DNA from: Paraburkholderia sp. BL23I1N1 | Lineage (GTDB): Bacteria > Pseudomonadota > Gammaproteobacteria > Burkholderiales > Burkholderiaceae | Direction: 5' to 3' | NCBI RefSeq assembly: GCF_003610295.1 | Contig: NZ_RAPV01000001.1 | Location: forward strand, 1,550,001 to 1,614,000 | DNA length: 64,000 bases | Shown here: piece by piece, positions 26,706-61,784 of the stretch | Layout of the letters: each line of letters starts with the position of its first letter | Numbering within the stretch: the first letter of the stretch is position 1 | Translations under genes and position numbers: made by a program | Notes under the pieces: model-generated | Databases searched by the model: none | What the model saw: only the letters and a program-made list of their open reading frames with translations | Told to the model about the DNA's origin: nothing

Positions 26706-28010
26706 ATGCTTACCGATCTGGAATTGCGGGCGCTCAAGCCAGCCGGCAGGATCTACAAGGTGGCCGACCAGCGCGGCCTGTACGTCGCGGTTACGGTCTC
26801 CGGTGTCGTCAGCTTCCGGTTTGACTACCGGCTCAACGGGCGGAGGGAGACGCTGGTCATTGGTCGTTACGATCCCCGGCTACCCGCCAGGGGCGTGCGT
26901 GAGACGCACGAATTGAGCTTCGGGATGTCACTCAGCCTCGCGGAAGCGAGGCTGCTTATCGAACGGGCCCGCCGCGACGTCGAGCAAGGCATCAGCCCGT
27001 CGCGGGCCAAGGTCGAAAAGCGCGTGGAAGCGGCCGAGGCGCTAACGTTCGGCAAGTGGGCCGAGAAGTACTTTGCCGAAGCGAGCCTCGCGGAATCGAC
27101 CCGCACAATGCGGCGGTCCGTCTATGACCGGAACCTGGCGGCGGACTTCGGGCGGCTGAAGCTCGAGGAAATTACTCCGGTACGCCTCATGGCCAGGTGC
27201 GAAAAGATCAAGGAACGGGGGGCTGCCGCCCCCGCTGTTCAGGCGCGCGAAATCGTGCTGCAGGTATACCGTTTTGTGCAGGCGAGGGGGCTAAAAGTAG
27301 CCAATCCGGCAGAAGATATCCGGCCTTCCGCAATCGCCACCTTCAAACCGCGCGACCGGGCACTGACGCCAGCCGAAATTCATGTGTTTTTCAAGGCCCT
27401 TGAGCGCACGCCCACGCTGCCTACGCTGCGTCTGGCGGTCAGGTTCATGCTGCTGACAATGGTGCGCAAGTCGGAATTCATCCTAGCCACGTGGGATGAA
27501 GTGGATTTCAATGCGGCGGTCTGGACAATTCCAAAAGATCGTATGAAGGCCGGGCGCGCGCACAACGTTTATCTGAGCCAGCAAGCCCTCGATATTCTGG
27601 TCACCTTCAAGACGTGTTTCGGCGCAAGCTCATACCTGCATCCCGGTCGTTACGAAACGGAACTGCCGATAAGTGCCGCCACCCTGAATCGCGTGATCGA
27701 CGCTGCCGTCAAGATTGTCCGCGAGAGCGGGGCAGAGGACTTCGAATCCTTCTCGGTGCATGACCTGCGGAGAACGGCCAGCACGCAGTTACATGAAGCC
27801 GGGTTCAACAGCGACTGGATAGAAAAGTGTCTGGCGCACGAGCAGCGCGGGGTGCGAGCCGTCTACAACAAGGCTGAATATGCCGAGCAGAGGCGCTCAA
27901 TGTTGCAGGCGTGGGCGGATATGCTTGACGGCTGGATAGCAAAGGATCCCGCGACGCATAGCGCCGGTCCGGTACAGCCTGCCGAGCGCGGCTTGACTCT
28001 GACCGCATAG
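26706..28010 (+). CDS. P4-type tyrosine integrase (genomic-island integrase)
   Basis: 434-residue site-specific recombinase. The N-terminal DUF4102-like arm-binding domain (LTDLELRALKPAGRIYKVAD) is followed by a core-binding domain (about 110-200) and the catalytic domain with Arg in TMVRKSEF, the HDLRRTAST box and the Tyr in GVRAVYNKAEY. All catalytic residues are present, so the protein looks active. Its position 222 bases behind guaA and pointing away from it marks the left end of an integrated island. Confidence 0.93.
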   Translation: MLTDLELRALKPAGRIYKVADQRGLYVAVTVSGVVSFRFDYRLNGRRETLVIGRYDPRLPARGVRETHELSFGMSLSLAEARLLIERARRDVEQGISPSRAKVEKRVEAAEALTFGKWAEKYFAEASLAESTRTMRRSVYDRNLAADFGRLKLEEITPVRLMARCEKIKERGAAAPAVQAREIVLQVYRFVQARGLKVANPAEDIRPSAIATFKPRDRALTPAEIHVFFKALERTPTLPTLRLAVRFMLLTMVRKSEFILATWDEVDFNAAVWTIPKDRMKAGRAHNVYLSQQALDILVTFKTCFGASSYLHPGRYETELPISAATLNRVIDAAVKIVRESGAEDFESFSVHDLRRTASTQLHEAGFNSDWIEKCLAHEQRGVRAVYNKAEYAEQRRSMLQAWADMLDGWIAKDPATHSAGPVQPAERGLTLTA

Positions 28011-39484: not shown

Positions 39485-39592
39485 CTAGCCACGCAGCTTA
39501 AAGCGCGTCGATGTCAGAAGGCTCGCATGCGCATCGTCTATCTGAGCCAAGCCGCGCTCGATCAAACGCGGCTGGAGATAACTGAAGCTTAA

Positions 39593-40758
39593 GGCTACGC
39601 TGAAAAAGGTCAACGGCATTGGTCGTTCAATCGTTAGATGTGGATGAAACAACAGACCCTTGCGATGGCGGCCGATCAAGGCGCCGGATTTGAACAGTAC
39701 CGTCGGCCAACCAAACGCGATGTGTTCCTTGAGACGATGGAGCAGATCGTGCCGTGGGCGCAGCTGTGCGAGGTTGTCGAGCCGTACTATCCGAAGGGTC
39801 AAGGCGGTCGCCCGCCAGTGGGTCTGGAGCGCATGCTGCGTATGCACTTTGTGCAGCACTGGTTCAACCTGGCCGACGAAGCCTGCGAAGAAGCGCTGCT
39901 GGATAGCACCGCATTGCGGCGATTCGTCGGGATTGATCTGGGGCGCGAGCGCGTTCCTGATGGTACGACGCTGTTGAAGTTCCGGCGGCTGCTGGAGCGC
40001 AACAAGCTCGGCGAGCAATTGTTCGCGAGGGTCGGCGATGTACTGCAAGGGCGCGGACTGAAGGTAGGCACCGGCACCATCGTGGATGCCACCATCATCG
40101 GTGCGCCGAGTTCCACAAAGAATGCGGACAAGGCGCGAGATCCCGAAATGCATCAGATGAGGAAGGGCCAGCAGTGGTACTTCGGCATGAAGCTGCACAT
40201 CGGTGTGGATAGCCAGACGGGGCTGACACACAGCGCGGTAGTGACGGCGGCGAACGTGCACGACAAGCATCCGCTGCCGACCCTGCTGCATGGCGCCGAG
40301 CGGCGTGTGTACGGTGACAGTGCCTATGCAAGCCAGAAGGAACTCATCGCCAGCAAGGCACCGAAAGCGAAGGACTTCACCAACCAGCGTGTGCGCAATC
40401 GCAGTGGTGAAGTCGATGAAACCAGGCGCTCGAAAAACCGCAAACAAGTCGAAGATTCGCGCCCGGGTCGAACACGTCTTTGCGGTGGTCAAGCGGCTGT
40501 GGGGCTTCGTCAAGGTGCGCTATCGCGGCCTCGCGAAGAACGCCACGCGCGCCTTTACTGCACTCGCGCTGGCCAACATCTACATGAGCCGCACGCGGCT
40601 GATGGCACAGGTGCGTCCATGAGTAGTCAAAGTGGGTCGAGAGACCCCCTTGCAAGGCCCTTCAGGGCCAGGAAATCGAACCAGTCGGGTCGCTGATCTC
40701 GCATTCCGAAATTCAGCGACAAGCTTTTGGCGAAAACGGTGGCTTCTTCAGCGTAGCC
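39593..40758 (+). mobile_element. IS5-family insertion sequence inside the aminotransferase gene
   Basis: 1166-base element with ends GGCTACGCTGAA and (inverted) TTCAGCGTAGCC, flanked by 4-base TTAA target duplications at 39589-39592 and 40759-40762. Different from, but related to, the IS5 copy in chrA. Confidence 0.92.
39638..40622 (+). pseudogene. IS5-family transposase, one-base frameshift
   Basis: Reads MWMKQQTLAMAADQGAGFEQ through catalytic-Asp regions TIVDATIIGAPSSTKN and YGDSAYASQKELIA. It then shifts frame near 40440, where an extra A in CGCAAACAAG moves RNKSKIRARVEHVFAVVKRL into the next frame, ending at 40622. The Glu-containing block is therefore lost from the main frame. Confidence 0.9.
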
Positions 40759-41145
40759 TTAAGCGTACACGGGCTGCACCGCACGGTCCATGGTGCTTTC
40801 CTTCGACGAGTTTCACATTGTGCTTCCGGCGCACCTCGCGGACCAATTCGGCGGAATCGATGCCTTCGGCAAGCGAGACCCAGAACGAAAATCCACCACT
40901 CGGAATCTCGTAATCCGGTTTGCAGAATCGGCAGGCCTGTAACAGCCTATGCATTGCGTCACGCTTGCTCCGGTAGTGCGTCCTTAGGTGTTCGACGTGA
41001 GCGTCCAAAGACGACGACTGCAATAAGGCGAGCGCCATATTGCTGACGTAAGCATCTGATTTGTACCGTTCCCCGCCTCGCGTAGAAGATGCAATCATCG
41101 TCTGCGACGGACACGAGTGACCGACTCTGTCCACAAACAGCGGGA

Positions 41146-41553
41146 ATGGACACAGTGCCTCAGACAGTCGAGTTACCTGCCAAGCGCCAGAACCGACGGT
41201 ATCCATTGGAATGGAAACAATCGGTCGTCGAGCAGACGTTTGAACCCGGCGCCTCGGTCGCAAGGGTCGCCCGCGACAACAACATCAACGCCAATCAGGT
41301 GTGGGCCTGGCGCAAACTGTACGCTCAGGGTCTGTTGATCGAAGATGCGCGGGCGGAGACCATGTTGCCTGTCGTTGTCGATGTACAGTCCGATCGACCG
41401 GCGGCCCGTGCTCCGGAGGCGACGAACGCGCCGGCACCTCGGGAGGCTGCAAAGGGCAGCATTCAGCTTCAACACGGCAATACTTCGGTCCGGATAGAAG
41501 GCGTGCCCGATGCCACGGTATTGCGCCTGGTCCTCGAGCGGATTCTGCGATGA
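41146..41553 (+). CDS. IS66 accessory protein TnpA
   Basis: 135-residue HTH protein (NRRYPLEWKQSVVEQTFEPG, then VARVARDNNINANQVWAWRK), the small DNA-binding protein of IS66 elements. Start at ATG 41146. Overlaps tnpB by 4 bases (ATGA). Confidence 0.85.
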   Translation: MDTVPQTVELPAKRQNRRYPLEWKQSVVEQTFEPGASVARVARDNNINANQVWAWRKLYAQGLLIEDARAETMLPVVVDVQSDRPAARAPEATNAPAPREAAKGSIQLQHGNTSVRIEGVPDATVLRLVLERILR

Positions 41554-41897
41554 TCGGGCCGCCTGCAAACACACGGATCTGGATCGCTGCCGGCGTCACT
41601 GACATGCGCTCCGGCTTCAATTCGCTTGCGGCAAAGGTACAGATGGTGCTTGAGAAGGATCCATACGGCGGCCATGTTTTTATCTTCAGGGGGCGTCGTG
41701 GTGATCTTCTAAAGGCGTTGTACTGGAGCGATGGCGGCCTATGTTTATTTGCGAAGCGTCTTGAGAAGGGGCGCTTTGCATGGCCTCGCGCCGACGCGGG
41801 CGTCGTGGCGTTGACCACCGCTCAACTCTCGCTCCTGCTCGAAGGGTTTGACTGGCGACAACCGGTCGACGCGGCACGACCGCGCAGTGCTTTGTAA
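41550..41897 (+). CDS. IS66 accessory protein TnpB
   Basis: 115 residues with the TnpB (IS66 Orf2) signature WIAAGVTDMRSGFNSLAAKV and GHVFIFRGRRGDLLKALYWS. Needed with TnpA and TnpC for IS66 transposition. Intact. Confidence 0.9.
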   Translation: MIGPPANTRIWIAAGVTDMRSGFNSLAAKVQMVLEKDPYGGHVFIFRGRRGDLLKALYWSDGGLCLFAKRLEKGRFAWPRADAGVVALTTAQLSLLLEGFDWRQPVDAARPRSAL

Positions 41898-41948
41898 ACG
41901 TCTGTTACCCGATGATCCGCGTGCAGCAGATAGTCGTAAACTGTCGTC

Positions 41949-43535
41949 ATGGATCTGACCGATGCCGACCTGCCCGACGACGTTGATGCGCTGAAGGCGC
42001 TAGTGCGCGCGCATGCGGCGTCGGCTCATGCAAACGCGAAGCGGGTCGTTGAATTGCAGGACCAGCTCAGCTCCCGCGTGATCGAGATCGAACATCTGAA
42101 GCTGATGCTCGCCAAACTGCGCCGCATGCAGTTCGGTCGCAAGTCAGAGAAACTCGATCGTCAGATCGAACAGCTTGAGCTGCGACTTGAGGACCTGCAG
42201 GCCGATGAAGGTGCGGCCGCCCAGGCTGATTCGAAGAAGGCGCAACAACGCCGCGAGAGGGGCTGTCGCAAACCGCTGCCCGATCACCTCGAACGCAAAG
42301 AGTATGTGCATCGACCCATCGAGGAAAACTGCCCGGAATGCGGTGGCACACTCAACCCGCTGGGCGAAGACGTATCCGAACAGCTCGAATACGTGCGCGC
42401 ACACTTCCGCGTCATCCGTCATCGTCGCCCCAAATTCGCCTGTTCGTGCTGCGACTGTATCGTGCAGGCCGCAGCGCCGAGCCGGCCGATCGATCGTGGC
42501 CTGCCGGGTCCGGCTTTGCTCGCACACATCACGACATCGAAGTTCGCGTACCACATCCCGTTCTATCGCCAGTCCGTCATGTACGCGCGCGACGGCGTCG
42601 AGATCGAAGCGGGCACCATGGGCCACTGGCTGGGCAGTCTGAGATGGCTGCTCAACCCTCTGGTCGACGCGGTGCGCCGCCACGCGCTTGGTGGCGCCAA
42701 GATTCACGCCGACGACACCCCGCTGCCGGTGCTTGCGCCGGGCAATGGCAGGACGAAGACCGGCCGGCTCTGGGTGTACGTGCGCGATGATCGGCCCAGT
42801 GGTTCGGACGAAGCGCCAGCCGTCTGGTTTGCCTATACGCCAGATCGTCGCGGCGAACATCCACAACGTCACCTTGCCAACTTCACCGGCGTACTGCAGG
42901 CAGATGCGTTCGCCGGTTATGCAGATCTTTACCTCGGCGGTCAGATTCGCGAAGCAGCGTGCATGGCGCATGCACGTCGAAAGCTACATGATCTGCACGC
43001 TGTTCGGGCATCACCGATCACCAGTGAGGCACTCGAGCGCATCGGCGCACTCTATCGCATCGAAGAGCACATTCGTGGCAAGCCGCCTGAAGAACGACAG
43101 CGCGTTCGCCAGGAGAAGGCTGTGCACTACTCGATGACATGAAACGGTGGTTCCAGACGACGCTTCTCACACTCTCCGCGAATCGGACACCACCAAAGCG
43201 ATCCAGTATTCGTTGAATCGCTGGCCTGCGCTGGTCTATTACTGCAGTGATGGTCAGGCCGAGATTGACATCTGATTGCCGAGCGCGCATTGCGCGGCGT
43301 GGCAATCGGAAGACGGAACTTTTTATTTGCCGGTGCGGACTCAGGCGGAGAACGTGCAGCCGCGATGTACAGCCTGATCGGATCTGCCCGCATGAACGGC
43401 GTTGATCCCGAAGCCTACCTGCATTACGTCATCGAGCGCATCGCCGATCACCCAGTGAATCGCATCGACGAACTGTTACCCTGGAACGTCGCTCCTTTGC
43501 TGCCCGCCGCCTCACACATCGATCCCGTTCGCTAG
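41949..43535 (+). pseudogene. IS66 transposase TnpC, frameshifted
   Basis: The main frame (to 43142) has the N-terminal coiled coil with LAKLRRMQFGRKSEKLDRQI, the zinc-finger region ENCPECGGTLNPLG, and the DDE start KIHADDTPLPVLAPGNG. The frame is lost near 43118, and pieces of the expected C-terminus continue in other frames (DDMKRWF near 43135, then [20 protein letters not shown] from about 43270 to 43535). At least two frameshifts, so the element cannot move by itself. Confidence 0.88.
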
Positions 43536-44382
43536 CAGCCGATCCTCTCGCGCGTCAACAAAATCCGCGACGGTGTAGGTCCAATGCTTACTTGCTGACA
43601 ATGGGACTCACACCTCCATCGCATTTCAGGTGGGCCAGGCGGTCGACAATTTCCGGCTCGGCCAGCACCCAGCCTAGGCGAAGCCCGGGGCCTGAGATTT
43701 TGGAGAAGCTATGCACATTGATGATGTTGCCACCCGCCTGCAGAACCTCGGGTGACGCGCCATCGTAGGGCAACTCGCTATAAACCAGGTCCTGCACCAG
43801 CCGCACGCCGTTGCGGGACAGTAGAGCCTCCACCTCGACCATATGCCGGTGTGCAAAGTATCGTCCAGTCGGATTGTGGAACGCCGGAGTGGTGTAGTAC
43901 AACTTGGCTCGCCCCTTTGCGTGCAGCAATGCTTGTTCGAGCAGATCGAGGTCGACACCCAAGGAATCCGCACCTACTTGAACCACCGTCGCGCCCGCAA
44001 TAGAGAAAATGCGCAACGCGCCGAGATAGGACGGGTCTTCGGTCAGCACGACGTCTCCTGGGTCGATAAAAGCATCGGCGAGCAGTTGCAGGGCTTGTGA
44101 AGCGCCGTTCGTCAGAATGACATTGCCACGCGCCATCCGGTACCTTTGGCCAAGCTGTCCGCGCAGTTCGGGAAGGCCATGGGCGTCGGTGTACTGCGGT
44201 AGGTCGGAGATGCTGACGCCCGTCTCGACGGTAAGCGGGTCCGGCCATTGCAGGCGGGCGAACGTCAAAGGATCGGGAAGCCCATAGGCGAAGTTGACTG
44301 TGTCCTTGCCTGAGGTGTGGTCGAATACCCCATAACTGAGCGAAGTGCGACTGCGCATCGACATGACTGGCTCCATCGTTGG

Positions 44383-45966
44383 TTACGCGGCATCGACAGC
44401 GCGCTGGAAGCGCGATTGATATTGGCGGATGAACGAGTCGGCAATTGGCATTCCGAACGGCGGAAATTCGGCCGTTGCTCTGGGAGGCGTAGCCGATAGC
44501 GTGGCGTTTGCGCCGAGTGCCGGTGTCCAATTCTCGCCAAAGAACACGTTTCCATAGCGTTCGGCCAGCACTGGCATCACGGGATGGAGCATGCTCAGAA
44601 AGACGGATACGTGCACCGGCCGCCACGTTTCCGGGCTCGTGCCGAAGCCCGTCGCGACGAAGTATTCGTCAATCAGATCGAGGGCGTTCCAGAAGCGTAC
44701 CTGGTCCATCGCGGTGATATAACGTTGGACTATGTCGTCGTGCGCCGGCGTAAGACCGCTTCCATCGACATTCGCCGAGTGCAGTGAATCGCGGCGGAGG
44801 GCGCTTTCCCACGCAAGGATGTGCGAAGCCGACCGGATCAGTTCGCCGATCTGGAAATCGTTATTGTTGGTGCCGAACGGCTTGGCAATCCGAGCGAGCG
44901 CATAGCGCAACACACTCGGGTCGACCTGCCGGGATACTTCATCTGCCCAGAGTGCATGGTCGCGGCTAGTCGAGAATTTCTGGCCCTCCAATTTATAGAA
45001 GTCCTGGATCGAATGATTTGCCGGAAGCGGATAGCCACGCGCAAGCAGGCTGCCAGCCACGCCGATGGTGTAGTAGAAGCGGTTATCTTGGCCCATGAAA
45101 AACAGGAGGCGTGTATCGGGGTCGCGCATCACGGTGTCGTAGTTGACCTCGTCGCGCGCGCACTGCAAGCGGATCCCCGTCTCGAAACACCAAAGCCCTT
45201 CGAACCACGTCATCAATGTTTGCCCCGCAATTTTCGCGGGTGCTTCAAGTGTCACACCCCGGTCGAAAATGCGCGACATAGGCAGTGGCCGCAATTCGTC
45301 ACGCAACCATGCACGCGCTTTACGCTGGATCGTTTGATCCCATTCACTCCCCTTGATCGCATCGTCAAGCATGGCTGCCATGCGAGGAATGTCGAAAACA
45401 GCCTGTTCGATGGGGCGAAGCGATAGCGGTTTGCCGCACGACGTGTGGACTGGCGTTCGCAACTTCGAGTGCTGTTGCGCCAAACCGCAGTTTTCGCACA
45501 AGTTGCTGTCGGTGGACGCATCGCACGCGGGGCAGAGGCCGACGGCAAGCGAATCGGCCACGAACTCGTCACAGTTTTCGCAGTAGAGTTGATGGCCATT
45601 ACGCACATCAATGTAGCCTGCAGCTTCCAGCTCGCGAAAGATCTTCAGACTGTTCTGCTTATGCGTAGCGTCCGTTGTTCTGATGAAGACATCGGGCTCG
45701 ATGTGCATTGCCCGCAAGCAATCCGTTATCTCGTCAATATGCAACTGCGCGACTTGGTCAATCGGGCGACCGAGCTTGCGCGCCTTCACTACTGTGTAGG
45801 TGCCATGCTCGTCCGCACCTGTGACGTGGTAGGCGCGGTGACCTCTCATGCGTTGAAAGCGAACGAAAAGATCGGTGAGCAGATAGACCCCGCCAATATG
45901 GCCGAGATGCAGTTTTCCGTTCGGGCAGGGCGGTGCGGGGCAAACGAAAAAAGTGCGTGTGTTCAC
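44383..45966 (-). CDS. MetRS-like hydrazine synthetase subunit (class I aaRS fold)
   Basis: 527 residues built like methionyl-tRNA synthetase: HIGH-type HLGH at 20-23, TGADEHG at 49-55, paired zinc-knuckle cysteines (C129/C132, C145/C148, C157/C160), KMSKS-type KFSTS at 330-334 and a C-terminal helical domain. Start is GTG, one base after the cupin stop (TAA-C-GTG), so the two are co-translated. In characterised hydrazine synthetases a cupin and a MetRS-like domain are fused; the MetRS-like part activates an amino acid that is joined to an N-hydroxylated lysine. A housekeeping or resistance metG paralogue is the alternative, but the operon partners argue against it. Confidence 0.82.
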   Translation of the reverse strand: MNTRTFFVCPAPPCPNGKLHLGHIGGVYLLTDLFVRFQRMRGHRAYHVTGADEHGTYTVVKARKLGRPIDQVAQLHIDEITDCLRAMHIEPDVFIRTTDATHKQNSLKIFRELEAAGYIDVRNGHQLYCENCDEFVADSLAVGLCPACDASTDSNLCENCGLAQQHSKLRTPVHTSCGKPLSLRPIEQAVFDIPRMAAMLDDAIKGSEWDQTIQRKARAWLRDELRPLPMSRIFDRGVTLEAPAKIAGQTLMTWFEGLWCFETGIRLQCARDEVNYDTVMRDPDTRLLFFMGQDNRFYYTIGVAGSLLARGYPLPANHSIQDFYKLEGQKFSTSRDHALWADEVSRQVDPSVLRYALARIAKPFGTNNNDFQIGELIRSASHILAWESALRRDSLHSANVDGSGLTPAHDDIVQRYITAMDQVRFWNALDLIDEYFVATGFGTSPETWRPVHVSVFLSMLHPVMPVLAERYGNVFFGENWTPALGANATLSATPPRATAEFPPFGMPIADSFIRQYQSRFQRAVDAA

Positions 45967-45967
45967 G

Positions 45968-46297
45968 TTAGTCCCACCATATCGATAGAAATTTCAGGCT
46001 CGCCGCCGGATCGGCATTGCGAATCGCGTGCTCCTGGTTCGGCTCGATATAGAGCAGTGTTGAATCTGCGACTGGCCGCGCCTGACCATTCACCTCGAAG
46101 ACTCCCTTGCCTGAAATGAGTATCCACAGTTCATGCTCGGAATGGGAGTGCAGATCGACAGCGCCCGCCGGCACGACCTCAACAATCGACGTGCCGAACG
46201 CTGTTGTCAGGCCAGCCGGCAGATGTTCGAGCAGCCGGCAAACAAGAACGCCGTTTTCCGGCCGCATCGTGGATTGGTCAATCTGCTTTGTGTACAC
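45968..46297 (-). CDS. Zinc-type cupin, hydrazine synthetase subunit
   Basis: 109-residue single cupin. Motif 1 is intact (H50, H52, E56 in DLHSHSEHELWILISGKG) and motif 2 supplies H90 (PNQEHAIRN), a complete 3-His/1-Glu metal site. It ends SIWWD. In the Spb40/PyrN type of enzyme the zinc cupin carries out the N-N bond-forming rearrangement of an ester between N-hydroxylysine and an amino acid. GTG 46297 is chosen because GGAGG lies 6 bases upstream; ATG 46303 touches the GGAGG, and an earlier ATG overlaps the dioxygenase gene. Alone, a small cupin could do many things; the neighbours decide the call. Confidence 0.82.
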   Translation of the reverse strand: MYTKQIDQSTMRPENGVLVCRLLEHLPAGLTTAFGTSIVEVVPAGAVDLHSHSEHELWILISGKGVFEVNGQARPVADSTLLYIEPNQEHAIRNADPAASLKFLSIWWD

Positions 46298-46319
46298 GCA
46301 CATCCTCCGGTGAATTACA

Positions 46320-47099
46320 TCAGGTACGATAGAAAATGCCATTTGGCGGCTTCAGATCCTGGATATCCGATTCCTTGTCTTCGGGTGGGTTGTAGGCACG
46401 CTTCAGTTTGTTGTATTCCGTACGCGTGGGGCCACCAGTTGAGGCGCGCTGGAACACCAGATAGAGCGTACGGCGCGAACGATTGCTTTTGTTGGGCTGC
46501 GAATAGTGCGGCGCGTAGTCGTCGAAGACGAAGATGTCGCCGGCCTTCCAGGGCACGGGTTCCCACTTGAACGTCTCGGCCACCTCCGGATGAATCACGC
46601 CGCCGGCGTCCATCGGAAACACACCTTTCTGATGGTTGCCCGGACTGAAGAACAGGCCGCCGTTGTCCGGATCGGAATCGTCGATGCCGATGGCGACCAC
46701 GGCATGCACCATGCGTTGAGGAATATTGTGCGGGATGTGATAGATGTCCTGATGCGGACGATAGCCGCCGCTGTCCGGGTACTTGAAGATGAGCAGTTCC
46801 TTGAGCATGCGGGTATCTTCATCGAGAAGCGATTCGACGGCAGTCTGGATGCGCTTGTCGGCCAGCAACAGGTCGCGCAGTTCGTTGTTGAAATCCAAAA
46901 AGTTCTCTATCTTTGAAACGATCCTGCGGTCATCCTCGGTCTTCTCGAACCACATCATCCATTTGTTTTCGCTGATTTCCCAGCGCGAGACATCGTTGAC
47001 CAGAGCAGAAATCTTTTCGCGGGTGACCGGATCGAAAAAGCCCTCCACTTTTAGATATCCATCTTCGTGCCACTTGGATTTTTGCGTTTCATTCAGCAT
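46320..47099 (-). CDS. Phytanoyl-CoA dioxygenase (PhyH)-family Fe(II)/2OG oxygenase
   Basis: 259 residues. The iron ligands are visible: HxD in GYRPHQDIY (H116, D118) and distal His in DYAPHYSQ (H198), with R209/R210 in RSRRTLYLVF for 2-oxoglutarate. Such enzymes hydroxylate amino acids and other small substrates. ATG 47099 has GAGGTGG 5 bases upstream and is preferred to a TTG at 47132. It lies 40 bases after the MFS gene and 22 bases before the cupin start. Probably tailors the lysine-derived or hydrazine product; the exact substrate is unknown. Confidence 0.85.
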   Translation of the reverse strand: MLNETQKSKWHEDGYLKVEGFFDPVTREKISALVNDVSRWEISENKWMMWFEKTEDDRRIVSKIENFLDFNNELRDLLLADKRIQTAVESLLDEDTRMLKELLIFKYPDSGGYRPHQDIYHIPHNIPQRMVHAVVAIGIDDSDPDNGGLFFSPGNHQKGVFPMDAGGVIHPEVAETFKWEPVPWKAGDIFVFDDYAPHYSQPNKSNRSRRTLYLVFQRASTGGPTRTEYNKLKRAYNPPEDKESDIQDLKPPNGIFYRT

Positions 47100-47139
47100 A
47101 CGAACCACCTCGTTAAAGAACGGAGTTTTCAAGGAGAAG

Positions 47140-48381
47140 TCAGGCGGCGAAATGCACCTTCATGCGCATGACGCCGAGTAGCACCACATTAGCGAGTACG
47201 GCGCCTAGCAGGACGACGAGCATTGCATCGGCGCCGAAAACGTGAATCAGGGCGCCACATAGGAAAGGGCATCCGAACAGACCGATGAAATAGGCAAGCG
47301 TAAAGATTTGCGAAGTCACGGGCACCGAAACGCCGTGGTCTCCGGCGAGGTTCGCGGCCATGCCGTTCAGGGTCGAGTAGCTCAGTCCGTAGCCCGTGGC
47401 GAACAGCGCGGTAGCGACGATATAAAGCGTCGTGCTGCCGTGGTTCAACAGGAACAGTACGAGCGAGGCGCCGGTCAGCAAAAACAATACGAGCGCCAGT
47501 CGGTCGGGCTTGATACGTCCCATGGTTCTCGCGAGCGACAAGCGCAGTGCCACGCTGGTTGTCGTGAACGTCAGGAAGAACAGGTCTGGCCTGAGGTTAC
47601 GCGAGACGGCATAGGGTGTCTGGTAAGTCGCCAGCCCGGCGAAGACACAGGCTGCCAGTGCGATCATTGCGATCGGCACTGCTGTTCGTGCCGTGAGCAG
47701 GGCCAACGTGTCGGTCGCGGTAATGGCCACGCGCGTCATCGGCAAACAGGACCCATCCCTCATCGCCTCGCTGGCGATCTTGACGCAGACTGCCGCCACC
47801 GCGCATGCCGCAGCGAACAGAAGGTAGGCCAGCGCGATCGAGCCGGTATGTTGGGCGATCAGGCGGCTCAAAGGCGCCGCCATGCCTAGTCCGGCCATTT
47901 GCGTGCCGGAGACGAAGGTCAGGTACTGGATACGTGCGTCGGGGCACAGATGATGGATGATTTGCAGCGGCGCGAGTATGAAGAACACGGACCACCCAGC
48001 GCCCAACAGCAAACCGCCTGCATAGACGGCACGAATGTTTATTGGCGCAGCGGCTAAGCAGAGCATGCTGCCTGCCATGACGAGCGAGGCCAGGGCGATG
48101 GTCGGCATGACACCGATACGCTGGGCTATGCGCCCGGCTACGCAGCAGCAGATCATGGTCGAGACCATGCCGCTCGAAATCACGGCGCCGGCGACATCGC
48201 TCTTCATGCCTAGGGATTGCAGGTACTCGGGCAGGAGAAAACTCGTCCCGTACGAAGCGGCGATCACCAGTGACGCGATCAGAAACGGAATGAACGCCCG
48301 TAATTGCAGGGATGCCGGCAAGTGCTCGGGGTGCGAGATCGCACGCTTGCCAGTCGATAGATAAATGGAGGAGTCAGTCAT
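47140..48381 (-). CDS. MFS-family exporter
   Basis: 413-residue transporter with about 12 hydrophobic helices and a central loop near residue 190. The GRIAQRIGVMPTIALASL segment between helices 2 and 3 is the MFS motif A region. Start ATG 48381 lies 4 bases after the monooxygenase stop, so it belongs to the same operon. It most likely exports the cluster product or gives self-resistance. The longer upstream frame is antisense-free but non-homologous to MFS. Confidence 0.85.
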   Translation of the reverse strand: MTDSSIYLSTGKRAISHPEHLPASLQLRAFIPFLIASLVIAASYGTSFLLPEYLQSLGMKSDVAGAVISSGMVSTMICCCVAGRIAQRIGVMPTIALASLVMAGSMLCLAAAPINIRAVYAGGLLLGAGWSVFFILAPLQIIHHLCPDARIQYLTFVSGTQMAGLGMAAPLSRLIAQHTGSIALAYLLFAAACAVAAVCVKIASEAMRDGSCLPMTRVAITATDTLALLTARTAVPIAMIALAACVFAGLATYQTPYAVSRNLRPDLFFLTFTTTSVALRLSLARTMGRIKPDRLALVLFLLTGASLVLFLLNHGSTTLYIVATALFATGYGLSYSTLNGMAANLAGDHGVSVPVTSQIFTLAYFIGLFGCPFLCGALIHVFGADAMLVVLLGAVLANVVLLGVMRMKVHFAA

Positions 48382-48385
48382 CCGC

Positions 48386-49708
48386 TTACGCCACTGCCGG
48401 CCGGCGCGAGGCCTGAGCCGCGTCGCACAGTATTGATCCTGCTTCAGTCTCCTGATCCTCAAGGCTGTCGAGCAGTTGCCGGTCCGGAACATCCGGATAG
48501 AAGGCAAGACCCAGCAGACTGTTGATGATGCGACTGTTCCTGTACGCGACCAGCGAAAGATTGACGCTTTGCAGGCCATGCTGCACGCGGCTTTGGTTTT
48601 GCAGATACACGGGACCGGGCATTGGCGCATCGAAGCGCACGGCGTAATCGGGATCGAGCGTTGGCAGACCGTCTTCAAGGCTTGCGCCGTCGAGCAGCTT
48701 CTGAACGAATGGTAAATGGCGCGGCTGAAAACCGGTTGCCAGGATGATTCTGTCCGCGCTTATGCCGTTGCGCTGCGACGTGACCCGCGAGGTCAACCCG
48801 ATGTGCCAGCGACCGCTGCGGCGGGTGATCTCGTCCATTGTCACCGAAGGCAACAGACGAAAGCAGTCGGCTAGCGTGCCATGGACGCTGCGTTCGTACA
48901 ACGCTTCATAGAGCCGGTTGCACAGGCTGGCGGAGATGCCGTCGCTGGTGAGCTTTTCGCTTTCGACAATGGCCCTGCGCTGCTGGATCGGCAGCGTGTG
49001 AAAGCTTTGGCTATAACTGGGCATGTATGCTTCATTGACAAATGCGTTGTCGTCCATCGCAAACAGATTGGCGCGCGACGTCGCCCAAGTGATCTTGTCG
49101 GGACCTGACTCGGTCAGCATGTGCTCGACGACTTCCGCGCCGCTCTGCCCGCCGCCCACCACCAGCACATGTTCGTCTTCGCTGAAAGGTTTCCGGTTAA
49201 GGTAGTCGTCTACGTGATAGACCGTCTCGCCAACCACCTGCCGCGCACATGCCGGCACCTTGGGTTCGACGCCGACCCCGACCACTACCGCGCGCGCATG
49301 ATATGTGCGCGCGGTAGTGGTCACGCAATAGCCCTTATTGCAAGGCCTGATATCGATCACCTCCTCGCCAAATCGAAGCGTGTCCAGGCATTGCGCGACC
49401 CATTGGTAATAGTGGGTGAACTCACTTCGCGATGTGCTGTTTCCACTTTTATTCACGAAGCTGTACAGGCGTCGATGTACAGAGAGATAGTTGAGAAAGG
49501 AATATGGGCTTGTGGGATTTACCAAGGTCACACAATCCTTGAGCGGCGACACCTGGAGTTGACTTTGGGTCAGCATGAGCCCGGGATGCCAGGAGAATTC
49601 TATGCGCTTCTCAAAGAAGAGCGCTCGCAAACCGGTGGGCTGAATGAGCGCCGCGAGGCTTAAATTGAAGGGTCCAATACCAATACCGATGACGTCTAGC
49701 ATGTCCAT
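48386..49708 (-). CDS. L-lysine N6-/L-ornithine N5-monooxygenase
   Basis: 440-residue flavin N-hydroxylase of the IucD/SidA/PvdA family, first gene of the operon. FAD site GIGIGPFNLSLAAL (residues 8-21), NADPH site VVGGGQSGAE (183-192), the substrate region DDNAFVNEAYMPSY (219-232) and ATGFQPRHLP near 342 are all present. In siderophore clusters it makes hydroxamate precursors, but here there is no siderophore synthetase or acyltransferase; a cupin and a MetRS-like partner instead point to hydrazine formation. ATG 49708 or 49702 are both possible starts. Confidence 0.9.
   Translation of the reverse strand: MDMLDVIGIGIGPFNLSLAALIQPTGLRALFFEKRIEFSWHPGLMLTQSQLQVSPLKDCVTLVNPTSPYSFLNYLSVHRRLYSFVNKSGNSTSRSEFTHYYQWVAQCLDTLRFGEEVIDIRPCNKGYCVTTTARTYHARAVVVGVGVEPKVPACARQVVGETVYHVDDYLNRKPFSEDEHVLVVGGGQSGAEVVEHMLTESGPDKITWATSRANLFAMDDNAFVNEAYMPSYSQSFHTLPIQQRRAIVESEKLTSDGISASLCNRLYEALYERSVHGTLADCFRLLPSVTMDEITRRSGRWHIGLTSRVTSQRNGISADRIILATGFQPRHLPFVQKLLDGASLEDGLPTLDPDYAVRFDAPMPGPVYLQNQSRVQHGLQSVNLSLVAYRNSRIINSLLGLAFYPDVPDRQLLDSLEDQETEAGSILCDAAQASRRPAVA
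49281..49321. repeat. Near-perfect 41-base palindrome inside the N-hydroxylase gene
   Basis: Arms ACCACTACCGCGCGC (49281-49295) and GCGCGCGGTAGTGGT (49307-49321) are perfectly complementary, and the 11-base spacer pairs further except at its centre and one G-T pair. It encodes the stretch around TTTARTYHARAVVVG. Confidence 0.85.
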
Positions 49709-50513: not shown

Positions 50514-52329
50514 GATCGATGAGGGCAGGCCCCTCGATGTCGTCTTTCAGGAGAAGGCATCAAACCACTTCAAGCTGCTGTGGTAAAGAGCCATGGTGGT
50601 GAGCGTTGAAGAAAAGGCGCAGTGAATGCGTCAGGTACGGAATAACGAGACGAGCGCAAGCGAACCGTCGATGAGGTGTCGATAGCTTTTCCCACCCGTC
50701 GTCAAAACCAAGGTCCACGTTGCATCCCGGGATAAACCAAGCGGGAGCCTGATGACTGGCTTGGTGGCGACCGGCATATAGACGGCGTGACGTTACTCCA
50801 GGCGATTGAACGGAACATAGGAACCTGTCATTCCGGTGCGAAGGGAGAAGCTTGATTTGAAAGACTCGAAGAAGGCGAGAGTACCGATGCGGGATACAGG
50901 GGCGGAGCATTTCGTAGTAGCGATGAAGCCTCGTAACGGGGGTGGAGCGAAGGGAATGCGTCATCCGGCAAGACTTGTGGGCCAACCAGAGAATGGGATG
51001 AGCCGATGAGTCGAGTCAGGCCGTTTGCAATAACGAAGCAGTCTGTGTGGACAGCATGGCTTCAGGTGAAAGCGAACCATGGCGCGCATGGTGTGGACGG
51101 GCAAACCATCGAGGCATTTGAACAGCGGCTTGGAGGCAATCTGTACAAGCTGTGGAGCCGGATGTCTTCAGGGAGCTACTTTCCCCCGCCGGTGCGTGGC
51201 GTGGAAATTCCGAAGGGCAATGACAAGCACCGCAAGCGCTTGTTGGGAATTCCCACAGTGGCAGACCGAGTTGCCCAAGCGGTTGTACGCAATTATCTTG
51301 AAGCGCAGGTAGAGCCCTGTTTCCATCCGGATTCCTATGCTTACCGTCCTTCCAGATCGGCGCTGGATGCGATTGCTGCTGTCCGGAGTCGTTGCTGGAA
51401 ATACGACTGGGTACTGGAATTCGACATCAAAGGTGCGTTTGACCACGTCGATCACGAGCTCATGATGAAAGCGGTGCGGCAGCATGCCCGTTGCACATGG
51501 GTGGAGCTGTACGTCGAACGTTGGTTGACGGCACCAATGATGAGGGGGCAGGAAATGGTGTCGCGGACGCAGGGCACGCCGCAGGGTGGTGTCGTCAGCC
51601 CGGTACTGTTTAATCTCTACATGCATTATGCCTTTGATACCTGGATGGCGAGGCACTTTCCGGACACGTCCTTCGTGCGGTACGCCGACGATGGATTGGT
51701 CCACTGTAAAAGTGACGCCGAAGCCAGACGGTTGCAGGAGGCAATCGGTGGGCGTCTCAAGGCCTGTGGCCTGGAACTGCATCCTGAGAAGACGAGGATC
51801 GTGTACTGCCGGGATGGGAATCGCAAGCAGGACTATCCCTCCACGAGCTTCGACTTTCTGGGATACACCTTCCGTGGCCGGCTGGCCAAGAGCAAGCGCG
51901 GCATCTACTTCAACAGCTTCAGTCCCGCGCTCAGCAGCAAAGCCGCGAAACGCATTCGCGAGAAAATGCGGATGTGGGACATCGGCCGCTGGACGGATGC
52001 TGGGATTGAAGACATTGCCGAGCGGGTCAATCCAGCCCTGCGCGGATGGTGGAACTATTACGCGGCGTTCTATATGAGCGTATTCAAACGTGTGATCGGC
52101 CACTTCAACGACATTCTGGCGAAATGGGCGGCGCGCAAGTACCGTCGATTCAAACGAAGTCGTGCCAAGGCTCGGACGTGGCTCAGGCAGTTGGCGGCGC
52201 GCGCACCGGATCTGCTGTATCACTGGTGGGGGTATTGCCTCCGGCTGGATGACAAGAGCCGTATGAATCGAGAGGTTCACGTACGGATCTGTGAGGGCCT
52301 GGCGGGGAAGTTCCTCCGGGCTACTCGAC
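50494..52329 (+). mobile_element. Group II intron (retroelement)
   Basis: About 500 bases of structured non-coding RNA precede the maturase gene, and domains V and VI close the 3' end. A plausible 5' boundary is GTGTGC at about 50494; the 3' boundary is probably ...CTACTCGAC at 52329, ending in AC as introns do. The 5' boundary is uncertain by tens of bases. It interrupts the IS3 remnant region. Confidence 0.7.
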
Positions 52330-52352
52330 ACTTCGCGAAGGAGTCGCGGTGA
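51006..52352 (+). CDS. ltrA: Group II intron reverse transcriptase/maturase
   Basis: 448-residue intron-encoded protein. It contains reverse-transcriptase blocks (SYRPSRSALDA-like YAYRPSRSALDAI, the DIKGAFDHVDHELM block, GTPQGGVVSPVLFNLYM), the YADD active site in FVRYADDGLVH, the LGYTF block and the GIIM maturase domain (NPALRGWWNYYAAFYMSVFK). It lacks an obvious endonuclease domain. The reading frame runs through domain V to stop at 52352, so the last 30 residues are RNA-domain sequence. Confidence 0.92.
   Translation: MSRVRPFAITKQSVWTAWLQVKANHGAHGVDGQTIEAFEQRLGGNLYKLWSRMSSGSYFPPPVRGVEIPKGNDKHRKRLLGIPTVADRVAQAVVRNYLEAQVEPCFHPDSYAYRPSRSALDAIAAVRSRCWKYDWVLEFDIKGAFDHVDHELMMKAVRQHARCTWVELYVERWLTAPMMRGQEMVSRTQGTPQGGVVSPVLFNLYMHYAFDTWMARHFPDTSFVRYADDGLVHCKSDAEARRLQEAIGGRLKACGLELHPEKTRIVYCRDGNRKQDYPSTSFDFLGYTFRGRLAKSKRGIYFNSFSPALSSKAAKRIREKMRMWDIGRWTDAGIEDIAERVNPALRGWWNYYAAFYMSVFKRVIGHFNDILAKWAARKYRRFKRSRAKARTWLRQLAARAPDLLYHWWGYCLRLDDKSRMNREVHVRICEGLAGKFLRATRHFAKESR
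52256..52289 (+). ncRNA. Group II intron domain V
   Basis: A 34-base hairpin from GAGCCGTATG to GTACGGATC with the AGC catalytic triad at 52257-52259, a GAGA tetraloop and a 2-base bulge on the 3' arm. This is the catalytic heart of the ribozyme and shows the orientation and 3' end of the intron. Confidence 0.85.
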
Positions 52353-55847: not shown

Positions 55848-57146
55848 TCAACGCGGATGCACCACGCAACGAACTGTAAGATGCTTTGGGCCGCTCACGA
55901 AGCTGGACGCAACGAATTCGATTTCGCCCGCCGGCTCGATAAGCCGCAACCTCGGGACCAGTTCCTCAAACAAGATGCGCATTTCCATGTTCGCGAGATG
56001 CTGACCCAGGCACACGTGGGCGCCGGCGCCGAAAGCGAGATGCCTGTTCGGTTTGCGGTCGATATTGAATGCGAATGGCTCAGGGAAGACCTGCTCGTCA
56101 CGATTTGCCGAGCCATAGCAGAGCATCAGCCAATCGCCCTTGCGGATTGTCCGGCCCCGGACGTTGGTGTCGGCAGTCGCCGTACGCATGAAATGACGCA
56201 CCGGCGATGCGTAGCGAAGGGTTTCGTCGATAAACTGCGGAATCAGCGAACGATCCGCCTGTAGTCGCGGCAGTAGCTCAGGGAAGCGGCTCAACGCCCA
56301 CATTGCGACCGATATGGACGACGAAACCGTATCATGTCCTGCTGCGGCGATGATCACGTAATAGCCAAGACGGGTCGCTTCATCGATAGGCTGTCCGTTG
56401 ATCACCGCGTTGGCCAGCAAGCTTGCGATATCGTTACGTGGGTTCTTCCGGCGGTCTTCGGTCAGGCGGTCAAAATAATCCTTGAAGTCGGCCACAATGG
56501 ACAGCAGGGCCTTGCCCATCGCGCTGCTCGCATCGCCTTGGCGCTGCACTTCGCGCTTGTATTCGGCATCCTCGCTTCCGAACATCTCCTGAGTCAACGT
56601 CAACATGCGCAGGGAATCTTCCTGCGGAACGCCGAGAATATCCATGATCACGCTCAGTGGGAAATGCAATGCAAAGTCATTCGCAAAATCGATCACTTGC
56701 CCGTTGTGATGCAACAGCTTCGCGATCGTTATATTTGCCAGCGATCGAATGCGGTCGTCAAGCTCGAGAATGCTGGTAGGCATGAACCACGACTGCGTCA
56801 GCGCGCGTAGACTCTTGTGCTCGTCGCCGTCGACGTGCACGAGTGATCGGGCGATGTTTGGACTACCGGTGGTGGAAATGACATGCTCGATCGACGCTCT
56901 TGGCCTGCAGACGACAGAATAGTCGCCGTTGTGAAACAAGGCATTTTCTCTTGAAATCATGGAGACGTCGGCGTGTTTCGTGACCACCCAGAACGGGTCA
57001 TGTCCATCCGCCATGGCGCGCCCGACGGGGTTGTTTGCACGCGCCCAAGTATAGGTTTCATGGAGGCGATTGAGGTTGGTATAGAACTGCGGATCAACCA
57101 GATGGTTTGCTATGTCTTTCGGTAGGTCGTAATTTGGCATGCTCAT
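55848..57146 (-). CDS. Cytochrome P450
   Basis: 432 residues, intact: I-helix AAAGHDTVSSS (about 267-277), ExxR as ETLR (308-311) and haem ligand Cys 379 in FGAGAHVCLGQHLA. No signal or membrane anchor, so a soluble class I P450 needing separate ferredoxin and reductase, neither of which is in the window. Start placed at ATG 57146; 57140 is possible. P450s of this general kind occur in rhizobial symbiosis regions (for example the CYP127 type), but I cannot assign the family or substrate. It may belong to the nod region or the hydrazine-type pathway. Confidence 0.9.
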   Translation of the reverse strand: MSMPNYDLPKDIANHLVDPQFYTNLNRLHETYTWARANNPVGRAMADGHDPFWVVTKHADVSMISRENALFHNGDYSVVCRPRASIEHVISTTGSPNIARSLVHVDGDEHKSLRALTQSWFMPTSILELDDRIRSLANITIAKLLHHNGQVIDFANDFALHFPLSVIMDILGVPQEDSLRMLTLTQEMFGSEDAEYKREVQRQGDASSAMGKALLSIVADFKDYFDRLTEDRRKNPRNDIASLLANAVINGQPIDEATRLGYYVIIAAAGHDTVSSSISVAMWALSRFPELLPRLQADRSLIPQFIDETLRYASPVRHFMRTATADTNVRGRTIRKGDWLMLCYGSANRDEQVFPEPFAFNIDRKPNRHLAFGAGAHVCLGQHLANMEMRILFEELVPRLRLIEPAGEIEFVASSFVSGPKHLTVRCVVHPR

Positions 57147-57191
57147 GATATTGATAGTGCGGTTTGTTGGTGGGCGGCACGATCCAGGCAA

Positions 57192-61145: not shown

Positions 61146-61784
61146 CTAACGCTGGTAAGTTGGTCCACACGAAGGAGAAGTCCCGTTGCGAAAGCAGGCG
61201 AGCAGACAGTCTTCATTCAACGACTGACCGACGCAGCTCAAACGATCGATCTCAACCAGCTCTTCTTCCAGGATGGCTATGACCGTCTCGGCTCCGGCAA
61301 CGTGGCCCCATCGCCGGCAATTGGCGTCACGTGCCGATCCGAAAACCAGCTGTCCACCGGGCGCAAGCATCCGTGCTAAATTGCGGACAGCGGCGCGCAC
61401 CTCGACGCTGCCGTCGAGGTAATAGAGAACCTCCGCCACCACGATCAGATCGAACTGTTGCTCAGTCGAAAAATGCTGGACATCGGAGACGATCCAATTG
61501 ATGTGTGGTGGGTCCATCATCCGTTCGCGTGTCCTAGCAATTGCGCGTGGCACAATATCGATCACGGTGAGCCGTTGGCAGTGCGGTGCCAATTTTTCCG
61601 TAAAGGCTCCGCCGGCGCATCCGACTTCGAGCGCATTTGTGACAGATCCCTGCGAAAGTGCCATCCGAAGCATTTGCCTGTGGCGCTCGTGCTCAAACGG
61701 ATTGTTGTCGAGCCGCCATGGATCGTCTGTGTCCAATTCCCGGCGCAGCAATTCGAAGTTCGTTTGATGTGTCAATTCCGCCAT
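61146..61784 (-). CDS. nodS: NodS-type SAM-dependent N-methyltransferase
   Basis: Methylates the amino group of the deacetylated non-reducing glucosamine of Nod factors, before NodA acylation. 212 residues beginning with FELLRRELDTDDPWRLDNNP, SAM motif I ALEVGCAGGAFTEKLAPHCQ (51-70), then FDLIVVAEVLYYLDG and VFGSARDANCRRWGHVAGAE, close to NodS proteins I remember from rhizobia. Lies between nolO and nodU on the same strand, as nodS-nodU usually do. Confidence 0.92.
   Translation of the reverse strand: MAELTHQTNFELLRRELDTDDPWRLDNNPFEHERHRQMLRMALSQGSVTNALEVGCAGGAFTEKLAPHCQRLTVIDIVPRAIARTRERMMDPPHINWIVSDVQHFSTEQQFDLIVVAEVLYYLDGSVEVRAAVRNLARMLAPGGQLVFGSARDANCRRWGHVAGAETVIAILEEELVEIDRLSCVGQSLNEDCLLACFRNGTSPSCGPTYQR

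Follow-up and report, generated by a model that had tools for sequence, protein, structure and literature searches.

The window analysed here is a 64,000-nucleotide stretch of Paraburkholderia sp. BL23I1N1 (assembly GCF_003610295.1, contig NZ_RAPV01000001.1, positions 1,550,001 to 1,614,000), and its subject is a minus-strand operon at 44383–49708 in which five genes run from a flavin-dependent N-hydroxylase to a protein resembling methionyl-tRNA synthetase (MetRS). In the order of transcription, the operon encodes the N-hydroxylase of the SidA/IucD/PvdA family (48386–49708; PF13434, 1.4e-106), an MFS transporter (47140–48381; PF07690, 1.4e-17), a PhyH-type Fe/2-oxoglutarate oxygenase (46320–47099; PF05721, 1.4e-38), a stand-alone cupin (45968 to about 46303; PF07883, 4.4e-12) and the MetRS-like protein (44383–45966; PF09334, 4e-67), the predicted amino-acid-activating half of a hydrazine synthetase; a pyridoxal phosphate (PLP)-dependent aminotransferase gene follows from 44376. 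Three reading frames stay open upstream of their assigned starts, that of the transporter to 48678 (homology sets its start at 48381, and the 413-residue form is conserved in relatives), that of the oxygenase to 47132, and that of the cupin, whose start is inferred, to 46342. The cupin stop and the MetRS-like start are joined as TAA-C-GTG, and the one-nucleotide gap recurs in most of the relatives compared. An original prediction, made from the letters of the window, had placed the hydroxylase, a stand-alone cupin with an H-H-E-H metal site and a MetRS-like protein with its characteristic motifs in one operon with this joint, all of which holds. We consider it likely that the operon is a small biosynthetic unit built around a split hydrazine synthetase and travelling with nodulation genes.

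The cupin carries the metal site H50-x-H52-x3-E56...H90 (A2 numbering), which is the H/D-x-H-x3-E...H arrangement of hydrazine-synthetase cupins including the essential glutamate; this glutamate is kept in the intact relatives. The metal-site residues of PyrN bear the same numbers (PMC8664883). A hidden Markov model (HMM) of 12 fused cupin domains matched the window cupin at 3.2e-15 versus 7.5e-8 for the best other cupin of this genome, among 25 examined of 41 genomic matches, one of the 25 being the window cupin itself. In the reverse search, all 12 fused domains were recovered at 8e-12 to 1e-8, and the best other cupin among those 25 reached 0.019; profile–profile comparison with the fused domains returned a probability of 99.3. 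Judged by sequence, the window cupin is nearer to hydrazine-synthetase cupins than are the 24 other cupin loci examined, and instead of clustering away from N–N-forming cupins it matches the fused ones. Its predicted structure (predicted local distance difference test, pLDDT, 82) has plu4264 and the Salinispora cupin 4rd7 as best fold matches, and the source species of both are named in Aravind 2010 (PMC2922099).

The MetRS-like protein possesses the HLGH and KFSTS motifs as well as Cys-rich zinc motifs, and it missed the curated cut-offs of all seven MetRS models listed, the best score being 243.1 of 587 bits. The strain's own MetRS is encoded elsewhere in the genome. A tree of 46 rows, comprising 45 of 76 protein matches and the strain's own MetRS, contained a 100/100 branch with 16 split and 11 fused rows on one side and, on the other, 19 MetRS rows, the strain's own among them; the joint grouping of split and fused rows assumes a root on the MetRS side. 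The tree leaves out P0042, P0048 and ten unassigned rows, among these the Leptospira row P0027, which adjoined the split clade in an earlier tree. The methionine-pocket positions of the Escherichia coli enzyme are replaced in the MetRS-like protein, and the split clade displays motifs of its own (PPCPNGK, TWFEGLWCF and GQDNRFYY) that are unlike those of both MetRS and the fused enzymes. On these sequence features, the MetRS-like protein is set apart from housekeeping MetRS, and the tree and the cupin HMMs together support the predicted separate-protein hydrazine-synthetase chemistry.

The residues of the hydroxylase were matched through an alignment with PvdA, in which Lys57 and the Asn of an FVNE motif are kept; we assume that the corresponding positions of SidA and PvdA are equivalent. 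In SidA, mutagenesis identified these Lys and Asn positions as substrate binding (PMC7347517). Alpha-aminoadipate aminotransferases are among the best PDB matches of the Mesorhizobium amorphae copy of the aminotransferase and, with the kept Lys and Asn, point to lysine as the most likely substrate, short of proof. Pulling the other way, the best PDB matches of the hydroxylase are diamine hydroxylases, followed by PvdA, MbtG and KtzI, and one of the three substrate positions compared differs from PvdA, the Asn323-like position being read as Thr. Overall similarity thus suggests a diamine hydroxylase, but the retention of Lys57 and of the FVNE Asn leads us to prefer, tentatively, an enzyme acting on an amino acid.

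The split arrangement itself has precedents. Aravind 2010 described a MetRS paralog accompanied by a lysine monooxygenase and by a cupin that is either fused to it or encoded alone next to it; Burkholderia phytofirmans, Ralstonia solanacearum, Mesorhizobium loti and Sinorhizobium meliloti are among the species named (PMC2922099). Zhao 2021 solved the chemistry with PyrN and with a natural stand-alone pair of demonstrated activity (PMC8664883), and hyphenated pairs appear in a 2024 review alongside a Ralstonia solanacearum entry and Q8KGM6 of Mesorhizobium R7A (PMC11705231). Because of these reports, a split synthetase in a beta-proteobacterium is no new kind of system, and the suggestion in the original prediction that the layout was undescribed does not survive. 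The RHS1 system of Rhodococcus jostii RHA1 resembles the window in its separate cupin and MetRS-like proteins, its lysine N-hydroxylase and its four-residue metal site with an essential Glu, but its site reads D/H/E/H and is accompanied by a saccharopine-dehydrogenase-like gene, whereas the H/H/E/H site of the window is accompanied by PhyH, MFS and aminotransferase genes near nodulation genes (PMC8664883). PyrN, Spb40 and Tri28 share the cupin and MetRS-like modules, a KFST-type motif and an N-hydroxylase in the cluster; they are fused, however, and the fused relatives compared are only about 30% identical in the MetRS-like part, with other pocket motifs. Afn8, Afn9 and Afn18 of albofungin likewise form a separate MetRS-like protein, cupin and lysine hydroxylase, but in a Streptomyces polyketide pathway with a hydrazine transferase (PMC11705231). 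In the abstracts and passages of open-licence PMC papers that were searched, no N–N-bond pathway of root-nodule symbiosis came up; two symbiotic-plasmid papers (PMC8479133 and PMC5011921) hold, in the parts available, nothing on this operon, and PMC3750425 gave no match for the terms searched. The symbiosis setting, rather than the split layout, looks new and is the stronger and more interesting finding; it was absent from the original prediction, as were the MFS and PhyH genes, the broken aminotransferase, NodS and the carbamoyltransferases described below.

A pattern scan of one genome per species (84,980 species) yielded 38 loci, distributed over Paraburkholderia, Ralstonia-type bacteria, Mesorhizobium, Bradyrhizobium, Rhizobium and Pseudomonas fuscovaginae, and the operon is conserved across the Paraburkholderia, Ralstonia, Bradyrhizobium, Mesorhizobium and Pseudomonas loci. 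All six genes reached at least 85% of the query length in one match at 20 of the 38 loci, some of the other 18 ending at contig ends; this length criterion is compatible with inner stops, as in the genome of locus L021, which has a TAG in the MetRS-like frame. Ratios of nonsynonymous to synonymous substitution (dN/dS) for seven sequence pairs and six genes lay mostly at 0.05–0.41, the highest being 0.64 and one being undefined. The 20 loci with all six genes and the low dN/dS argue that the gene set is more than a chance assembly. A close relative (P0002, 84%) occurs in P. bryophila, which lay outside the nodA search described below. In a plasmid collection, 34 among the best 60 of 68 records showed at least 55% identity, all from Rhizobium or Mesorhizobium, and the next listed stood at about 30%. 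The Rhizobium copies have no aminotransferase gene and a truncated MFS gene; in R. phaseoli N261, nodA and nodD2 flank the hydroxylase, PhyH, cupin and MetRS-like genes. In the corresponding interval, R. etli CFN 42 (L005, 14844–16560) retains a full-length MetRS-like gene, possibly an orphan, along with a fragment of the cupin.

The association with nodulation genes was followed in three genera, using the MetRS-like protein as query in Paraburkholderia (E ≤ 1e-60) and Bradyrhizobium and the PhyH partner in Mesorhizobium. In Paraburkholderia, 6 of 144 genomes carry the MetRS-like gene, and NodA, present in 27 of the 144, was found in all six, carrier G095 having no more than a fragment of 51 positions. 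The gene was detected in 23 of 242 Bradyrhizobium genomes (two as partial matches), every one of them with NodA, against a background of 131 of 242 genomes with full NodA (E below 1e-50) or 150 with weak matches included. The PhyH partner was present in 30 of 146 Mesorhizobium genomes (three as partial matches), and NodA in 101 of the 146 and in all 30 carriers. Hypergeometric p values were 2.7e-5, 2.8e-7 and 3.2e-6 for Paraburkholderia, Bradyrhizobium and Mesorhizobium, respectively, ignoring kinship and shared islands. When 20 genomes with the locus were searched for NodA, 16 were positive, one of them with only a short piece. The operon and nodA share a contig in 14 Paraburkholderia and Bradyrhizobium genomes and are 30–361 kb apart in 13 of these; in the genome of the window, the distance is 57.5 kb, with nifH about 41 kb beyond nodA.

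A scan of 49 loci (1.45 Mb, both strands) for a strict sigma-54 −24/−12 pattern returned 17 matches, 15 of which precede the hydroxylase gene and share its orientation. Among the loci having that gene, the site was present in 8 of 15 from Bradyrhizobium and 7 of 9 from Rhizobium; the loci being related, the 15 sites represent conservation within lineages rather than 15 independent events. Five of the Bradyrhizobium loci have a NifA upstream activator sequence (UAS) 100 bp upstream of the sigma-54 site; in the seven Rhizobium loci, the distance to the nearest UAS in that direction is 328 bp. In M. albiziae (L020), a sigma-54 site matching at 11 of 12 positions is preceded by a UAS at a distance of 61 bp. 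NifA and sigma-54 probably activate the operon in the nodules of several alpha-rhizobia. A nod box upstream of the window operon was also considered and dropped, the best candidate matching 26 of 41 positions versus a mean of 21.9 and a maximum of 27 in shuffles.

The Mesorhizobium loci connect the operon to clusters with fused synthetases. In Mesorhizobium sp. 131-3-5, a strain of the Lotus type, a hydroxylase, a PhyH protein and a fused cupin-MetRS are encoded together beside the nif-specific fdxB on a plasmid (L080, 5829–11001). Its PhyH is 76% identical to that of the window, while its hydroxylase belongs to another subfamily (37% identity) and its synthetase is fused where that of the window is split. 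Three sigma-54 sites of this strain are identical to those listed in R7A for msi280, msi276–274 and the msi281 neighbourhood (PMC3538637), its hydroxylase gene sharing the promoter of msi280. The R7A gene msi280 is annotated as an L-lysine 6-monooxygenase; its lacZ fusion reached 371.6 Miller units in bacteroids, a value that fell to 268.9 in the absence of nifA1 and to 7.3 in that of nifA2 (PMC3538637). By colinearity, Q8KGM6 (CAD31310; PMC11705231) would be encoded beside msi280, both belonging, like the setting of the window, to a symbiosis island. The best 12 of the 30 Mesorhizobium PhyH loci were inspected, and all 12 contain a hydroxylase and a synthetase, fused in ten and split in two; one PhyH type thus serves two synthetase types on symbiosis DNA. 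A hybrid cluster in M. albiziae (L020, 993–5787) combines a hydroxylase of the Lotus (fused-cluster) type with PhyH and a split cupin and MetRS-like pair. In the fused clusters of Streptomyces, S. meliloti, Pantoea and Deinococcus, PhyH is absent from the stretch inspected and a flavin adenine dinucleotide (FAD)-dependent oxidoreductase is annotated, the cleavage role of which PhyH may take over. The S. meliloti accessory plasmid (L081, 4585–9271) bears another rhizobial hydrazine-type cluster, with a fused synthetase, the FAD-dependent oxidoreductase and nonribosomal peptide synthetase (NRPS) genes.

Outside the operon, the NodS nodulation methyltransferase (61146–61784, minus strand; PF05401, 2.8e-76) and two carbamoyltransferases are encoded at 59–64 kb of the window, and a cytochrome P450 gene lies nearby at 55848–57191. 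A group II intron reverse transcriptase is encoded upstream of the operon on the opposite strand (51006–52352). A tyrosine-type integrase with an Arm-DNA-binding domain (26706–28010) may mark the edge of an island; an ARAGORN scan of the window detected no tRNA.

Taken together, the best reading of the locus is a symbiosis-island pathway to a lysine-derived hydrazine that is tailored by PhyH and an aminoadipate-type aminotransferase. The flavin enzyme would act first, hydroxylating a basic amino acid, most probably lysine, at its side-chain nitrogen. By analogy with PyrN and RHS1, the MetRS-like protein would adenylate a second amino acid with ATP and transfer it, without tRNA, to the hydroxylamine oxygen, and the cupin would rearrange the resulting unstable ester to form the N–N bond. 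PhyH may then oxidise the conjugate, perhaps with C–N cleavage as performed by flavin oxidases in other hydrazine pathways, the aminotransferase, of the alpha-aminoadipate kind, would act on the lysine-derived part, and the MFS protein would export the product.

Several observations weigh against the synthetase assignment, which concerns a clade without known activity. The split clade lies far from the fused enzymes, on long branches, and PDB profile ranking of the MetRS-like protein placed Pyrococcus abyssi MetRS (1.5e-69) ahead of PyrN (4.9e-55), with E. coli MetRS next. The MetRS-like model (pLDDT 82) adopts a MetRS fold for which the PyrN domain ranks 14–16, behind true MetRS, and RHS1 was not among the 50 fold matches listed for the cupin model. 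By cupin profile, RHS1 (5uqp) came only eighth, after DMSP lyases and TM1459. The fold and the top-ranked P. abyssi enzyme would suit a duplicate or drug-resistant methionyl-tRNA synthetase beside unrelated genes; the scores far below all MetRS cut-offs, the changed pocket, the separate branch, the MetRS gene elsewhere in the genome and the tight coupling to the cupin make this very improbable. Aravind 2010 originally proposed that the MetRS paralog acts as a peptide or amide ligase (PMC2922099), linking a modified lysine and an amino acid through a peptide bond to give, for example, a siderophore-like compound, and the hydroxylase of the operon is of siderophore type. However, PyrN and RHS1 form N–N bonds, the amide being no more than a shunt product (PMC8664883), the cupin Glu is conserved, and a domain search of the operon proteins and the relatives' loci revealed no acyltransferase or NRPS gene within the operon; we regard the ligase as unlikely.

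The preferred hydrazine pathway must also be weighed against decay and against a life without symbiosis. In this strain, the aminotransferase gene is broken into three minus-strand pieces, an N-terminal one of 262 residues (43588–44376; PF00155, 9.1e-28), a middle one (about 40748–41050, inner border approximate) and a C-terminal one (about 39485–39592, border approximate), the latter two placed by eye against intact copies in the open reading frames 40748–41263 and at the end of 39485–40513. Between the pieces lie two plus-strand elements, one of the IS66 type whose own TnpC frame is broken (41089–43535) and a DDE transposase of the DUF772/DDE_Tnp_1 type (39638–40696); four Paraburkholderia loci (L012–L015) retain an intact aminotransferase of 389 residues. 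Because of this break, the pathway in this strain may be cut short or lead to a different product, and it is probably impaired. That the operon is a decaying relic in this strain, functional only in relatives, is a sizeable possibility that we nevertheless doubt somewhat: the reduced Rhizobium copies and the R. etli remnant favour it, but here the remaining five genes have open reading frames and are conserved, and the aminotransferase may be dispensable, since R. phaseoli lacks it while keeping the genes for the hydroxylase, PhyH, the cupin and the MetRS-like protein. Alternatively, the split synthetase may have no symbiotic role and belong to an antimetabolite or defence cluster that rides mobile islands and plasmids with nod genes. 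NodA was not found in two Ralstonia-type and two Pseudomonas carriers among the 20 locus genomes searched, so the operon is not purely symbiotic; in one Bradyrhizobium genome (G190), operon and nodA are megabases apart on one contig; and the M. loti msi280 mutant was fully effective, nitrogen fixation being kept (PMC3538637). No strict NifA/sigma-54 site was found upstream in the window (best match 8 of 12) or in the L012, L014, Ralstonia, Pseudomonas or M. amorphae-type loci, and Paraburkholderia L015 offers one 10-of-12 match at −670. Against this alternative stand the upstream sites of the NifA/sigma-54 type, which two genera and the Lotus-type cluster possess, the proven NifA dependence of msi280 (PMC3538637), and the fact that one PhyH type accompanies both split and fused synthetases on symbiosis DNA. 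We hold a cluster without symbiotic role to be possible but doubtful.

A bolder reading, extended beyond this strain, holds that alpha- and beta-proteobacterial legume symbionts carry on their nodulation islands and plasmids a dedicated hydrazine pathway with a product formed in nodules or close to them, in several lineages under the NifA/sigma-54 switch of nitrogenase. Split and fused synthetases occur with much the same PhyH, and one class of N–N metabolite would therefore result from the two; it would act as a signal, a rhizopine-like private nutrient or a nodule antimicrobial and would not be needed for fixation. We advance this tentatively, as close to an even call. If true, a new hydrazine-type metabolite would be expected in the nodules of many legumes, and the orphan NifA-regulated ‘lysine 6-monooxygenase’ of M. 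loti would gain a context. The family would likewise be extended by a separate MetRS-like clade whose amino-acid pocket is its own, and by a candidate Fe/2-oxoglutarate-dependent step in hydrazine release.

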